38,243 nucleotides of DNA from Verrucomicrobiota bacterium (lineage in GTDB: Bacteria > Verrucomicrobiota > Verrucomicrobiia > Palsa-1439): positions 1 through 38,243 of the forward strand of contig VHCW01000043.1 of assembly GCA_016871575.1 (NCBI GenBank), read 5' to 3'. A program made the translations under genes and the position numbers. Below the pieces are notes generated by a model, which saw only the letters and a list, made by a program, of their open reading frames with translations, searched no databases and had not been told where the DNA came from. The stretch's first letter is position 1. Every line of letters starts with the position of its first letter. This document shows positions 19,314-23,596 of this stretch, one piece after another.

Positions 19314-19595
19314 TCAAAAGGAATCCAGAAACCGTTGTACGTCGTCATGATTGCCGATCAGATGAAGCATGACCACGTCCTTTTCCGGTTGAGTAAACAC
19401 GACACGACAGCGTTGCCCAAGGCGCAACTCAAAAACTCCACGCAGATGAATCTTGCGCACGCCCAACCCGGCGTGACGATGGGGTTGGCCGAGCGCCAGC
19501 GGAAGTTCCTTCACGGCATCGGCGAGTTGCAGGCGGAGGTCGTCTGGAGCGTGTTCGAGTTGACGTTGGATGCGGCGCGACAGCACAATTCTCAT
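19314..19595 (-). CDS. RelE/ParE-superfamily toxin (module 2)
   Basis: A 93-residue protein with the compact RelE-like layout: N-terminal helices (SRRIQRQLEHAPDDLRLQLADAV), then beta strands (RGVFELRLGQRCRVVFTQPEKDVVMLHLIGNHDDVQRFL). RelE-type toxins cleave ribosome-bound mRNA, and ParE types poison gyrase; the strand pattern here is nearer RelE, but no full catalytic set can be confirmed. The start overlaps the antitoxin stop as ATGA, the usual antitoxin-first arrangement. It lies 65 bases upstream of larC on the same strand, within what would otherwise be a lar operon. Confidence 0.8.
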   Translation of the reverse strand: MRIVLSRRIQRQLEHAPDDLRLQLADAVKELPLALGQPHRHAGLGVRKIHLRGVFELRLGQRCRVVFTQPEKDVVMLHLIGNHDDVQRFLDSF

Positions 19596-19864
19596 GTGCG
19601 TCGGCGTGGCTTGGTGATGGTGGCGGCAAACGCAGCAGGCGACTCGTGGACTTGGGCAACGCCGTCTTCCAATTCCGTACGGGCTTCGTGCGCCAGGTAG
19701 TCGGCGGCGGCATTACTCACGCGAAGTGCCGGTGCTTCATCCGCCGGCACAATGGCTGCCACCGGCTTCGATCCGCGCGTAATCACAACCCGTTCGCCTC
19801 GCAACGCAGCATCCACGAGCGCATCAAGCTGTGTCTTGGCATCGGCAAGTGTGGTCTTCGTCAT
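19592..19864 (-). CDS. Phd/YefM-type antitoxin (module 2)
   Basis: A 90-residue protein whose first half matches Phd/YefM antitoxins: TLADAKTQLDALVDAALRGERVVITRGSKPVAAIVPADE, in which the ERVVITRGSKPVAAIVP strand-turn is diagnostic. This part forms the DNA-binding dimer that represses its own operon; the C-terminal segment would wrap and neutralise the toxin. The gene begins 33 bases after a decayed larC fragment. Its stop overlaps the toxin start by four bases. Confidence 0.85.
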   Translation of the reverse strand: MTKTTLADAKTQLDALVDAALRGERVVITRGSKPVAAIVPADEAPALRVSNAAADYLAHEARTELEDGVAQVHESPAAFAATITKPRRRT

Positions 19865-19897: not shown

Positions 19898-19960
19898 TCA
19901 AGCACTGGTAACGCTGTCGCCGCCGGTGCCGGCAAAACAATCAAGGTGGAGGAATTTCAT
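19898..19960 (-). pseudogene. Decayed 5' fragment of a second larC copy
   Basis: On the minus strand an ATG at 19960 encodes MKFLHLDCFAGTGGDSVTSA and then stops. Its first 15 residues match the intact LarC start MKLLYLDCFAGISGD at 11 positions, and the 45 underlying bases match at 37, including runs through GATTGTTTTGC. After codon 15 the similarity ends. The ATG overlaps the upstream ParE-like toxin's stop as ATGA, the normal operon junction in this genome. It is best read as the stub of a former larC gene, cut off when the downstream DNA was replaced or invaded; chance similarity is unlikely. Confidence 0.8.
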
Positions 19961-20253
19961 TTGAGTCGTTCGCGCCAATAGCCGGGTTTTCGATGCAGAT
20001 GCATGACTGCGATAACCTGCAAATGATCGGCACGACTTCGATAAATGAGGCCGTAGGGAAAGCGTTGAATTCGGTATTGACGGACACCGGGATCAATTTC
20101 AGTGGCGAGTTCGGGAAACTGATTGATCCGGTTCACTGCCGCTCGGACGGAATGAACGAAGTGACGCGCCAAACCAGCTTGCTGGGCTTCGTAGTAACGG
20201 ATGGACTCCCAAAACTCCTGCCGTGCTTCAGGATGGAAGCCGACCTGGTTCAT
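19957..20253 (-). CDS. ParE/RelE-family toxin (module 1)
   Basis: A 98-residue ParE-like toxin: an N-terminal FHPEARQEFWESIRYYEAQ helix, the helix-turn LARHFVHSVRAAVNRINQFPE, then RQYRIQRFPYGLIYRSRADHLQVIAVMHLHRKPGYW with the F-PY-LIYR strand and the final H-x-RKPGYW typical of plasmid-stabilisation toxins. The family inhibits DNA gyrase or translation. The start overlaps its antitoxin's stop (ATGA). Its own stop overlaps, again as ATGA, the start of the larC stub, which indicates that this toxin once preceded an intact larC directly. Confidence 0.88.
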   Translation of the reverse strand: MNQVGFHPEARQEFWESIRYYEAQQAGLARHFVHSVRAAVNRINQFPELATEIDPGVRQYRIQRFPYGLIYRSRADHLQVIAVMHLHRKPGYWRERLK

Positions 20254-20529: not shown

Positions 20530-21285
20530 TCACGTCGGGGCGAGGCGGTTAATCAAGCCCGCCGCGTAACCCGCCCCGAAGCCGTTGTTGATGTTGACCA
20601 CTGTCACGCCACTGGCGCAACTGTTGAGCATCGCCAGCAGGGCGGCGATGCCGCCGAAACTGGCGCCGTAGCCGACGCTGGTCGGGACCGCGATGACAGG
20701 CTTGTCCACGAGACCACCCACGACGCTCGGCAGGGCGCCTTCCATCCCGGCGACGACGATGAGGACGTTGGCCGCGAGGAGTTCTTCGTTGACGGCCAGC
20801 AACCGGTGCAGGCCGGCGACGCCGATGTCGTAGAAACGTTTCACCGTGTTGCCCATGATGTCGGCAGTGACGGCGGCTTCCTCGGCGACGGGGATGTCGG
20901 TCGTGCCGGCGCAGAGGATGGCAACGGTGCCGGGGTGTTTGGGCAACGGCTTTTTGGTAACGGTGACGATGCGGGCTTCGGCGTGGTGCTTGGCCTTCGG
21001 AAAGGCGCGTCGCAGGGCGCGGACGACGTCGGGCGCGCAACGGGTGGCGAGCAGGTTATCGTTGTGGGCGAGGATGGCGCGGGCGATCTTGACGACTTGT
21101 AGTGGTGTTTTCCCTTCTGAGTAGATGACTTCGGGAAAGCCTTTGCGCAAGGAGCGATGGCCGTCCACGCGGGCAAACTTCAGGTCATGGGTGCCGAGGG
21201 ATTTCAGTTGGCGGACGGCGTCGGCGGTTTTCAGCCGGCCTGCCTGCACTTGGTCGAGCAGTTCGATGAGACGGGATTCGTTCAT
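20530..21285 (-). CDS. larB: Nickel-pincer cofactor biosynthesis protein LarB
   Basis: Carboxylates and hydrolyses nicotinic acid adenine dinucleotide, the first step toward the nickel-pincer cofactor. The 251-residue protein shares the fold of AIR carboxylase PurE: AILCAGTTDIPVAEEAAVTA, then GVAGLHRLL, VAGMEGALPSVVGGLVDKPVIAVPTSVGYG, and the closing NINNGFGAGYAA. The N-terminal helical part (MNESRLIELLDQVQAG...) is the usual LarB extension. The ATG at 21285 overlaps the preceding membrane-protein stop (ATGA). Its partner larC lies 1.28 kb further on, beyond two toxin-antitoxin modules. Confidence 0.95.
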   Translation of the reverse strand: MNESRLIELLDQVQAGRLKTADAVRQLKSLGTHDLKFARVDGHRSLRKGFPEVIYSEGKTPLQVVKIARAILAHNDNLLATRCAPDVVRALRRAFPKAKHHAEARIVTVTKKPLPKHPGTVAILCAGTTDIPVAEEAAVTADIMGNTVKRFYDIGVAGLHRLLAVNEELLAANVLIVVAGMEGALPSVVGGLVDKPVIAVPTSVGYGASFGGIAALLAMLNSCASGVTVVNINNGFGAGYAAGLINRLAPT

Positions 21286-21701
21286 GTCGGCACTCCAAAC
21301 AAGGCTTTTACGGAGGGCCGCATCAGGGCGATAATGGTGAACACGCCCAGCACGGTGCCGAACGGCACGAACATGCAGCCGATGCCGGCCATGACCATGC
21401 AATACATGTAATGCCTGTGCTTGCTCAGGCAACGTCCCGCTGCCAACAGGCACGCGGCAAACGCCCAGCCCGCGGCGATAAAACAGGCTGCGAAGATGAT
21501 GAAGAACCACCCCAGAAACGCTGGCGGCGGGTTCTTCGGTCCGCCCATTTTTTCCGGACAGGCCACCATGAAGATGCCGAGCACCAGATGGATGACCGGG
21601 AGGCAGGCAAACAACGCCGCCAGCCCGGCCGCGATGTAGTGAAAGATGGACAGCAACCGGAGTTGGTCGGCGTCCTGGGTATTGGGGGGTGTTCCGTTCA
21701 T
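21282..21701 (-). CDS. Small membrane protein upstream of larB, function unknown
   Basis: A 139-residue protein that I do not recognise by family. After a polar N-terminus (MNGTPPNTQDADQLRLL) it has about four hydrophobic segments: IFHYIAAGLAALFACLPV, IHLVLGIFMV, FLGWFFIIFAACFIAAGWAF and MAGIGCMFVPFGTVLGVFTI. Cysteines occur in or near several segments. The stop overlaps the larB ATG by four bases, so it is translationally coupled to larB and could serve in nickel or precursor handling, but that is only positional inference. The ATG at 21701 has GGAG 3 bases upstream, closer than ideal; a start at 21740 would also be open. Confidence 0.65.
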   Translation of the reverse strand: MNGTPPNTQDADQLRLLSIFHYIAAGLAALFACLPVIHLVLGIFMVACPEKMGGPKNPPPAFLGWFFIIFAACFIAAGWAFAACLLAAGRCLSKHRHYMYCMVMAGIGCMFVPFGTVLGVFTIIALMRPSVKALFGVPT

Positions 21702-21803
21702 GGCTCCATGGTAACAGCAGCGCGCAACGACGGCAAGCACGCAAGGGCGCGCCTTTCCCGGCTGCCGCTGCTGCTTTCCCCAAGCGCTGAAACCTCACCC
21801 AAT

Positions 21804-21843
21804 TTACCGGATTTGGGGAACGATCGTTCCTCAAATCCGGTAA
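21804..21843. repeat. 40-base near-perfect palindrome
   Basis: The outer arms TTACCGGATTTG and CAAATCCGGTAA and the core GGAACGATCGTTCC are continuous: all 20 base pairs match except one G/T pair. The centre is CGATCG at 21821-21826. It lies in the 290-base gap between rng and the larB operon, about 100 bases before the first gene of the latter and 150 bases after rng. No T-run follows on either strand. It could be a large stem in RNA, a protein-binding site or a dispersed palindromic element. Apart from it I see nothing definite in 21702-21991. Confidence 0.8.
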
Positions 21844-21991: not shown

Positions 21992-23596
21992 TTATTCCAG
22001 TTCGTTGCCGGTCAGGGCGTCGGTGATTTTGAATTGCTCGAAGTGGAAGGAAGGATCAGCGCGGAAACTGAGTTTCCCATTCAGGTTCTTTTCCAGTTCG
22101 ATGAGCAACGTCTCATCCTCGGTCCGCAGCCGGTTGAGGACTTCAGGGTGAACATAGATGCGGATGTGCGGCTGGTCGTGCCGGCCCTTCTCGCGGAGCC
22201 GGCGGAGGACTTCGCTGATCTTGCGCTGGATTTCGACGGACATGGAGAGGGCGCTCTTGACCATGCCTTTGCCTTTGCAGTACGGGCAGTCCTCATAGAC
22301 GGCGCTGAACATGCTTTCGCTGTGGCGTTGCCGGGTCATTTCGAGCAGGCCAAGCTGCGAGATCGGCAGGATGCGCGTCTTGGCTTTGTCGCGGCGGACG
22401 CATTCGCGCATTTTCTGGAGCACCTGTTGCTGGTCGCGCCGGTGACGCATGTCAATGAAGTCCACGACGAGCAGGCCGCCGATGTTGCGCAACCGCATTT
22501 GACGGCAGATTTCCTCGGCGGCTTCGAGGTTGGTCTGGAGGATCGTGGTGTCGAGGTCTTTCTGGCTCTTGTGTCGGCCGGTGTTGACGTCAATGGAGAC
22601 GAGCGCCTCGGTCTCGTCAATGCAGATGTAACCGCCGCTTTTGAGCCAGACCTGCCGGCGGAACGCGCTTTCGATCTGGCGCTCGACGTTGAACTTGGTG
22701 AAGATGGGTGTCGGCTCGTTGTAGAAGCGGGCTTTGCCGCGCGAGCGGATGCTGATCTGGCCGATCATGCTGCGGATGCGGTTGTAGGCCACTTCGTTGT
22801 CCACGATGATGCGGTCAATGTCCTCGGTGAGAAAATCGCGGACAGTGCGCTCGATGATGTCCGGCTCCTGGAAGACGCAGCTCGGCGCGGGGTCATTCTT
22901 GATTTTGGCCTCGACCTGTTTCCATGTCTGGAGGAGCAACTCCAGGTCGCGGATGAAGTATCGCTTCTTCTGTCCTTCGCCGACGGTGCGGACGATGATC
23001 CCCATGCTCTCGGGGAGTTTCAGTTCGGCGACGATCTTCTTGAGGCGCTGGCGTTCCTTGTCGTTGTCAATCTTGCGCGAGATGCCGCGCGACGGGTCGA
23101 ACGGCATCAGGACGAGGTAACGACCGGGGATGCTGATGTTGGTGGTGATGCGCGGCCCCTTGGTGCCGATGGGGCCTTTGACAACCTGCACGATGACTTC
23201 GGAGCCGGGGGGGTAGAGTTTGGGAATCTCGTTCTGGCTGATTTTCTTTTGCGGGCGCTTGGGCGCGTTGGGCGTCTCGACGAGGTCCACGCGGTCGGCA
23301 AGCGACTCGGGGATGATGTCCCAGTAATGCAGGAACGCATTTTTCTCAAAGCCGATGTCCACGAACGCGGCTTTCAAGCCGGGTTCGAGGTTTTTGATCT
23401 TACCCTTGAACACGCTGGCGACGATGCGTTTCTCGCCGGTGCGCTCGATGGTGAATTCCTCGAGCTGCCCGTGTTCCAGCAACGCGACGCGGTTTTCGAG
23501 CGCCTCGGCGTTGACGACGATTTCCTTGTGTGTCAGCTTTCGCCGTCCCAGCAACAGTTCTTCGCCTTTTTGTATCAGTTTCTTGATCGCTTCCAT
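21992..23596 (-). CDS. rng: Ribonuclease G/E family endoribonuclease
   Basis: Cuts single-stranded AU-rich RNA and helps mature 16S rRNA in the cytoplasm. The 534-residue protein is RNase G-sized, without the long RNase E scaffold tail. An S1 RNA-binding domain lies near the N-terminus (SVFKGKIKNLEPGLKAAFVDIGFEKNAFLH, about 63-92). The catalytic core includes ETEALVSIDVNTGRHK, with magnesium-binding aspartates here and in LLVVDFIDM, and the zinc-link CPYCKGKG that holds the dimer together. It is the last gene of the rod-shape operon, one base after rodA, as in many bacteria where rng follows mreBCD. An in-frame start only at 23596 fits. Confidence 0.95.
   Translation of the reverse strand: MEAIKKLIQKGEELLLGRRKLTHKEIVVNAEALENRVALLEHGQLEEFTIERTGEKRIVASVFKGKIKNLEPGLKAAFVDIGFEKNAFLHYWDIIPESLADRVDLVETPNAPKRPQKKISQNEIPKLYPPGSEVIVQVVKGPIGTKGPRITTNISIPGRYLVLMPFDPSRGISRKIDNDKERQRLKKIVAELKLPESMGIIVRTVGEGQKKRYFIRDLELLLQTWKQVEAKIKNDPAPSCVFQEPDIIERTVRDFLTEDIDRIIVDNEVAYNRIRSMIGQISIRSRGKARFYNEPTPIFTKFNVERQIESAFRRQVWLKSGGYICIDETEALVSIDVNTGRHKSQKDLDTTILQTNLEAAEEICRQMRLRNIGGLLVVDFIDMRHRRDQQQVLQKMRECVRRDKAKTRILPISQLGLLEMTRQRHSESMFSAVYEDCPYCKGKGMVKSALSMSVEIQRKISEVLRRLREKGRHDQPHIRIYVHPEVLNRLRTEDETLLIELEKNLNGKLSFRADPSFHFEQFKITDALTGNELE

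Follow-up and report, generated by a model that had tools for sequence, protein, structure and literature searches.

A 40-bp palindrome lies between rng and the larB operon in a 38,243-nucleotide stretch of Verrucomicrobiota DNA (contig VHCW01000043.1 of assembly GCA_016871575.1; hereafter, the window). Its form would suit an operator, a terminator or a copy of a dispersed repeat, and the question is which of these it is. Here, we describe the palindrome, its relatives in the same genome and the genes that they bracket, and argue that the window palindrome is quite probably a non-autonomous solo of a dispersed palindromic element whose partner, in a RAYT-like role, is a protein of the PaaX/Cas2 fold. 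The palindrome and its neighbors are as follows.

21804..21843, unstranded: the palindromic element as a 40-bp solo, with 19 of 20 pairs matched
21804..21815, plus strand: left outer arm TTACCGGATTTG, with the CCGG box; the arm varies among copies, the opposite arm matching it
21817..21830, unstranded: conserved core GGAACGATCGTTCC, with 13 exact sites in the genome; the core pairs are near-invariant in 15 copies
21832..21843, plus strand: right outer arm CAAATCCGGTAA, the complement of the left arm
21992..23596, minus strand: rng (RNase E/G family; PF10150, PF20833), upstream of the palindrome in the direction of rng transcription; context only
21282..21703, minus strand: small membrane-like protein between rng and larB, without a Pfam match (scan from 21740); context only
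20530..21276, minus strand: larB (AIR-carboxylase-like domain; PF00731); context only

The arms TTACCGGATTTGGGGAACGA (21804-21823) and TCGTTCCTCAAATCCGGTAA (21824-21843) are 95% complementary, with 0 nt between them and a single mismatched pair (21816/21831), and the first-pass annotation, which had reported a loop-less 40-base palindrome with 19 of 20 pairs at this place, was exact in coordinates and sequence. It is the strongest of 8 inverted repeats in a scan of the window (arms at most 40 nt apart), and as RNA it folds with a z of −4.7 against shuffles, none of 200 folding as well. There is no terminator-like T-run at 21804-21843, which agrees with the same annotation's argument against a simple terminator and on which ground an intrinsic terminator was rejected; Rfam gave 0 matches in the window at gathering thresholds. 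The string GAAC-N4-GTTC is literally present. The copy and its flanks read ...CACCCAAT-TTACCGG...CCGGTAA-CTGCTGG..., with GTAG at neither end. Farther along, the lar cluster contains toxin-antitoxin genes between larB and larC (19314-19864 and 19957-20253, minus strand). One is a Phd/YefM-type antitoxin gene, next to a small open reading frame, and another, set apart from it, encodes a ParE-type toxin.

Further palindromes came out of a DNA search of the genome. The core GGAACGATCGTTCC has 13 exact sites (reversed control, 0), each within a longer palindrome, with degraded arms in two, and four sites with one mismatch (reversed control, 0), among which C31:21533 and C31:32711 are palindromes of the window type and C10:57614 is without arms. 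A genome search for the outer arm TTACCGGATTTG, as had been proposed, found both arms exactly here only; the inner core is the part that recurs genome-wide. Fifteen copies of the window type were aligned, six of them forming three pairs and nine being solos, the window copy included; with the palindromes of sister types described below, they bear out the earlier suggestion of a dispersed palindromic element. All 15 have in common the core and an outer CCGG-containing box, and the bases between these vary, both strands changing together (AAAAAA/TTTTTT, ATAGA/TCTAT, ACACA/TGTGT); the arms are degraded in two copies (C40, C31:20656). In a count over the 15 copies, 91.5% of cells were paired, and changes on both sides filled 74 cells against 28 when shuffled (a value reached in 0 of 500 shuffles) and 1 to 18 in slid registers; because the copies are related, a relatedness that the slid control retains, the count of 74 versus 28 is not a probability.

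Longer inverted repeats of the host (e.g., GCCAACCTTTCC...GGAAAGGTTGGC) surround two solos, L033 (C31:14220) and L025 (C104:755), which gives the appearance of insertion into a hairpin. Insertion into host hairpins was rejected as a rule, since flank complementarity exceeded 95% of the null in only 2 of 18 solos, these same two. A separate repeat family of ~58 bp (TGTGGGGCAGGTTTGCAACCTGCC...), found at L201 (C2:18082) and L202 (C2:36121), is unrelated to the type described here and is possibly tied to the genome's Y1 transposases.

The three palindrome pairs lie 875, 877 and 869 bp apart, and each encloses a single gene. All three genes encode PaaX-like proteins, with a winged helix, a Cas2-like domain and a PaaX C-terminal domain; a RAYT/Y1 transposase, tried as the candidate at the palindrome pairs, was rejected on this finding. 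The genome has 15 such paralogues, about 35 to 53% identical to the query, and by inspection of their flanks matching palindromes stand at both ends of 11 genes, at one end of 3 (L058, L059 and L060) and at neither end of 1 (L064). Each PaaX-like gene or small gene group has its own palindrome, with cores such as TGTTATAATTATAACA, GAGACGATCGTCTC and GCTACATATGTAGC, and the scattered solo palindromes match the gene-flanking types. The LexA box whose form the first-pass annotation had noted in the core was set aside, because these sister palindromes keep the architecture with other cores (e.g., TGTTATAATTATAACA and GAGACGATCGTCTC). Most upstream palindromes are centered ~50 nt ahead of the start codon and most downstream ones ~20 to 35 nt past the stop codon, and a full element consists of a palindrome, one gene and the same palindrome, about 870 to 920 bp in all. 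Paralogues only about 35 to 53% identical to the query give no sign of a recent burst of whole elements. Two paralogues were considered as pseudogenes; the flagged stops proved to be the genes' own stop codons, past which the alignment had read, and no decay is claimed. The same genome has nine Y1_Tnp matches over the cut-off (L043 to L051), RAYT-type candidates alongside the PaaX-type system.

In 799 kb of the genome, 33 palindromes scored at least 12 against 2.5 expected under a Markov-3 model, and 23 scored at least 14 against 0 expected, so that the palindromes are not chance occurrences, as had been surmised of the window copy. The census contigs were not random, their numbers being known from earlier hits, and C31, C79 and C40 had been chosen for holding copies; without these three (720 kb; loop of at most 2), 18 palindromes scored at least 14, of which 14 had the PaaX-type architecture (3 gene-flanking and 11 solo, the type of one solo being matched to no gene). 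The 11 solos scale to ~80 per genome, a rough extrapolation that carries the bias of contig choice. By a crude open reading frame method, 13 of 18 solos are intergenic, and the window copy scored as lying inside a chance open reading frame. Three relatives without a detected member of the PaaX-like family (G006, G001 and G010) yielded 6 palindromes scoring at least 14 in 800 kb; all were other GC-rich stem-loops, and none had the PaaX-type architecture.

A scan of a genome contig collection gave 56 related loci, nearly all in Verrucomicrobiota metagenome-assembled genomes (MAGs), with a few from CPR bacteria, one from Streptomyces and one labelled Acidobacteria; 10 further loci came from relatives. 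After 6 duplicates and 1 fragment were dropped, 74 loci (15 from this genome, 59 from others) and 418 control windows were scored with identical 210-base windows at a palindrome score threshold of at least 9. A palindrome was present at the 5′ end in 54/73 loci, at the 3′ end in 49/71, at both in 41/70 and at either in 59/70 (control, 15/418). The 5′ and 3′ palindromes were on average 0.84 identical within one gene and 0.42 between genes, and a gene's own 3′ palindrome was the best match to its 5′ palindrome in 34 of 41 cases. Over 52 genes, palindrome similarity followed protein similarity (Mantel r of 0.51 for the core and 0.58 for 36 bases; p 0.0005), a correlation to which shared descent contributes. 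The palindrome and the PaaX-like gene are associated and vary together. Another 36 loci were scored, several of them already among those above; one gave no hit, and the remaining 35 had palindromes at the 5′ end in 24/34 and at the 3′ end in 19/35. The outer flanks of the 41 two-ended elements are C-rich on the left and G-rich on the right (mean C-G skew, +0.23 and −0.22), a possible target preference; the inner flanks have mean skews of −0.03 and +0.09.

PaaX_M proteins were present in 58 of 137 genomes of the CPR class of the Levybacteria locus, with up to 10 in about 1.1 Mb. The CPR palindrome signal is weaker (5′, 5/24; 3′, 11/24; control, 13/139; 29 loci inspected and 24 parsed, among them L292, which was misparsed), and an identical palindrome was seen by eye at both ends of seven loci (L280, L283, L284, L289, L295, L299 and L300). 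Two CPR genomes had 10 (G524) and 7 (G472) PaaX_M/Cas2-like matches, and some CPR palindromes were centered on CGATCG or similar. The family is patchy, being found in 7 of 57 genomes searched and in 26 of 387 genomes of a phylum sample (this genome included in each), and it is absent from G001, of the same genus. No family gene was found among 67 candidate stretches of viral contigs, and the plasmid matches (9 records) were all distant PaaX-type regulators; phage or plasmid carriage was rejected on these results.

Matching sites in relatives bear on when the window copy arrived. A gap of 12 to 93 nt separates rng from larB in G004, G006 and G001 (the last with an RNase G that is 91% identical), and neither the palindrome nor the small membrane gene lies in it. 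The first-pass alternative, a binding site upstream of the larB operon, was rejected on this absence, from which it also follows that the window copy is a later addition; its arrival between the small membrane gene and rng probably postdates the split from G001. The relatives do not offer a clean empty site here, the small membrane gene being missing from them as well. That gene (21282-21703) may have come with or near the palindrome. For one full element (C4:85501-86415), a filled site and its empty counterparts in three relatives were found: the enclosing ABC-ATPase and permease genes are 23 to 40 bp apart in G003, G006 and G010 and about 1,020 bp apart in this genome, although the junction is not base-exact, with tens of extra bases on either side. 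A solo that follows greA (between greA and thrC) has no counterpart beside either gene in G001, nor after greA in two other relatives; greA and thrC are on different contigs in G001, so this comparison gives absence of the solo only. No target-site duplication was evident on viewing the element flanks.

The three enclosed genes match PaaX_M, the central Cas2-like domain, at E values of 4e-18 to 8e-17, with PaaX_C near the cut-off; none matches Y1_Tnp (PF01797) at E values up to 1, and no transposase domain was found. Among 62 members, PaaX_M was present in all 62 and PaaX_C in 61 (E of 0.1 or better), which places them in the PaaX superfamily. The equivalog model of the PaaX repressor itself (TIGR02277) gave 51.5, 48.5 and 56.9 bits against a cut-off of 264.55. 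The Cas2 model PF09827 was matched by 22 of 62 members at E of 0.1 or better, and the best PF09827 and TIGR01573 scores in the three genes (14.5 versus 23.8 bits and 19.3 versus 24.5 bits) were below the cut-offs. In the C31 protein, the Cas2 models align weakly over residues 93 to 128, which include an Asp that ends the first Cas2-like strand in 61 of 62 aligned proteins (FDLP, FDVP, YDIP and so on). Cas2 uses the first-strand Asp for metal. The one exception is a Streptomyces protein, also without palindromes; the Asp is present yet no palindrome is found at L064, L077, L121 and others, and 11 of 70 loci had a palindrome score of at least 9 at neither end, most of them keeping the Asp. In six PaaX-type regulators (five from actinobacterial plasmids and one from Escherichia coli; motif inspected), the Asp is replaced, and none of the six has a matching palindrome pair; E. 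coli paaX has a hairpin score of 10.5 upstream and no downstream match.

A structure model of the C31 protein (62 sequences; mean pLDDT, 87) was closest among solved structures to E. coli PaaX (8a39; Z, 16.5; root mean square deviation [rmsd], 5.9 Å; 252 aligned) and Mycobacterium tuberculosis Rv0674 (3kfw; Z, 16.0; rmsd, 4.4 Å; 228 aligned), and Foldseek returned Cas2 chains of Cas1-Cas2 complexes at E of about 0.15. A shared fold proves no function. A defence role was also considered and rejected, PADLOC giving only weak Cas2 and CARF-model matches and PHROGs one weak regulator match.

Several other explanations have to be weighed against a mobile element. The palindromes could be operators, the PaaX-like proteins being autorepressors with a site before and after their own gene, the solos their regulon and the window copy the operator of the small membrane gene and the larB operon. 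The PaaX family is one of known repressors, its E. coli member (8a39) matches the fold, palindromic sites fit a dimeric winged-helix protein, and the 5′ palindrome lies about 50 nt before the start codon. We nonetheless consider this reading doubtful, because it covers the upstream site but not the downstream site, the symmetric middle or the empty sites: an autorepressor does not need a matching copy just past its stop codon, and the middle between box and core changes symmetrically, as base pairing requires and protein contact does not. The patchy presence (7/57 and 26/387 genomes) and the empty sites also count against it, as do the six PaaX-type regulators (five plasmid-borne and that of E. 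coli), which lack a matching palindrome pair. It is unlikely that the repeats are REP-like and moved in trans by the genome's own Y1 (RAYT-type) transposases or by host repair, with the PaaX-like genes as passengers or regulators, even though nine Y1_Tnp matches are at hand and REP/RAYT systems are associated with dispersed palindromes in the excerpted text of PMC3733652. The three enclosed genes have no Y1 domain, the palindrome type follows the PaaX-like protein (Mantel, 52 genes), and the window copy has neither a loop nor GTAG at its ends; such palindromes are also absent from 800 kb of three relatives, which were compared for the PaaX-like gene only and in which none was found.

Many intergenic copies, presumably bound by a dedicated winged-helix protein, might also be expected of chromosome-organizing sites of the MatP/SlmA kind, dispersed and kept by selection and not by mobility; 15 paralogues with differing site types, the flanking of genes on two sides and the absence from close relatives suit such sites poorly and make this reading very improbable. 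That the window palindrome is an ordinary terminator, a LexA box or a chance palindrome is scarcely credible: GAAC-N4-GTTC and a strong RNA hairpin are present, but the T-run is missing, the core has 13 exact copies, and the sister families have unrelated cores.

A gene bracketed by its own palindrome, ends that change in concert, solos, paired variation and absence in relatives together amount to the build of an element that is, or once was, mobile, with non-autonomous derivatives. In the mobile-element reading that we prefer, the PaaX-like protein would bind the core and the outer box as a dimer, act on a hairpin or cruciform form of the palindrome and copy or move palindromes, either with its gene or, as in the window, without it, in the manner supposed for the spread of REPs by RAYT proteins; a metal-dependent nuclease step may rest on the conserved Asp. 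We infer the protein as the mobilizing agent and the hairpin or cruciform as its substrate, the symmetric variable middle being the best hint of a hairpin step. Any local effect of the window copy would be at most that of an RNA hairpin. The first-pass interpretation is, as a whole, partly supported, and it is the partner gene, invisible from the window, that gives the palindrome finding its weight: the palindrome alone would be a minor repeat, and its parent system appears undescribed and is widespread.

There is about an even chance that these palindromes and genes, which range across Verrucomicrobiota and CPR, make up a new mobile-element class: single-gene elements with palindromic ends, together with the solos that they shed, mobilized by a PaaX/Cas2-fold protein and not by an HUH, DDE or tyrosine/serine recombinase. 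If the PaaX-like protein does move or process palindromes, the chemistry of mobilization would be new, a class of orphan palindromic repeats would be accounted for, and many PaaX-type or Cas2-like annotations in Verrucomicrobiota and CPR may be misnamed. It would also provide a concrete, testable link of palindrome-handling elements to Cas2; such proteins may be ancestral, or related by descent, to both Cas2 and the PaaX repressors.

Judged against the open-access literature searched, the combination of palindrome and PaaX-like gene appears undescribed. No description of a palindrome/PaaX-Cas2 system was found in that literature (preprints and most subscription journals lie outside its scope), nor any paper on PaaX together with Cas2 or with repetitive extragenic palindromic sequences, and the open-access PaaX papers that mention palindromes deal, to judge from titles and the first lines of abstracts, with regulators, pathways or genome comparisons. 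In bacteria, the usual case of a gene linked to a family of dispersed palindromes is REP/RAYT. In the excerpts of PMC3733652, REPs are tagged by GTAG and RAYT genes are flanked by REPs or terminal inverted repeats, and CGTC-tagged REPs are described as apparently lacking a dedicated transposase. REP/RAYT (REPtrons) and TIRYT (TIRtrons), as given there, share with the present system short, dispersed, mostly extragenic palindromes and a dedicated single gene flanked by repeats, different genes having different repeat types (PMC3733652). Unlike in REP/RAYT, the partner here has PaaX_M and PaaX_C and no Y1/HUH domain, the palindromes are loop-less dyads (the window copy ending without GTAG), and the box and core are conserved while the middle is paired but variable. 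With a REPtron-like layout, an unrelated protein and no GTAG at the window copy, the system would work like a REPtron but is not one.

The IS200/IS605 insertion sequences are small elements with hairpin-forming ends, from which the present elements differ in that the enclosed genes have no Y1_Tnp match. With the PaaX repressors (8a39, 3kfw), the proteins described here have the three-part fold and the domains in common, but they fall far below the TIGR02277 cut-off, and the Asp is replaced in the six regulators, which lack matching flanking palindromes, and in the Streptomyces member. Their central domain resembles Cas2, the CRISPR adaptation protein, to which they add a winged helix and a C-terminal domain, with matches below the curated cut-offs. 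In Verrucomicrobiota and CPR, the genetic position of RAYT among its REPs is occupied by an unrelated fold, one known from a set of repressor domains and from the Cas2 adaptor.
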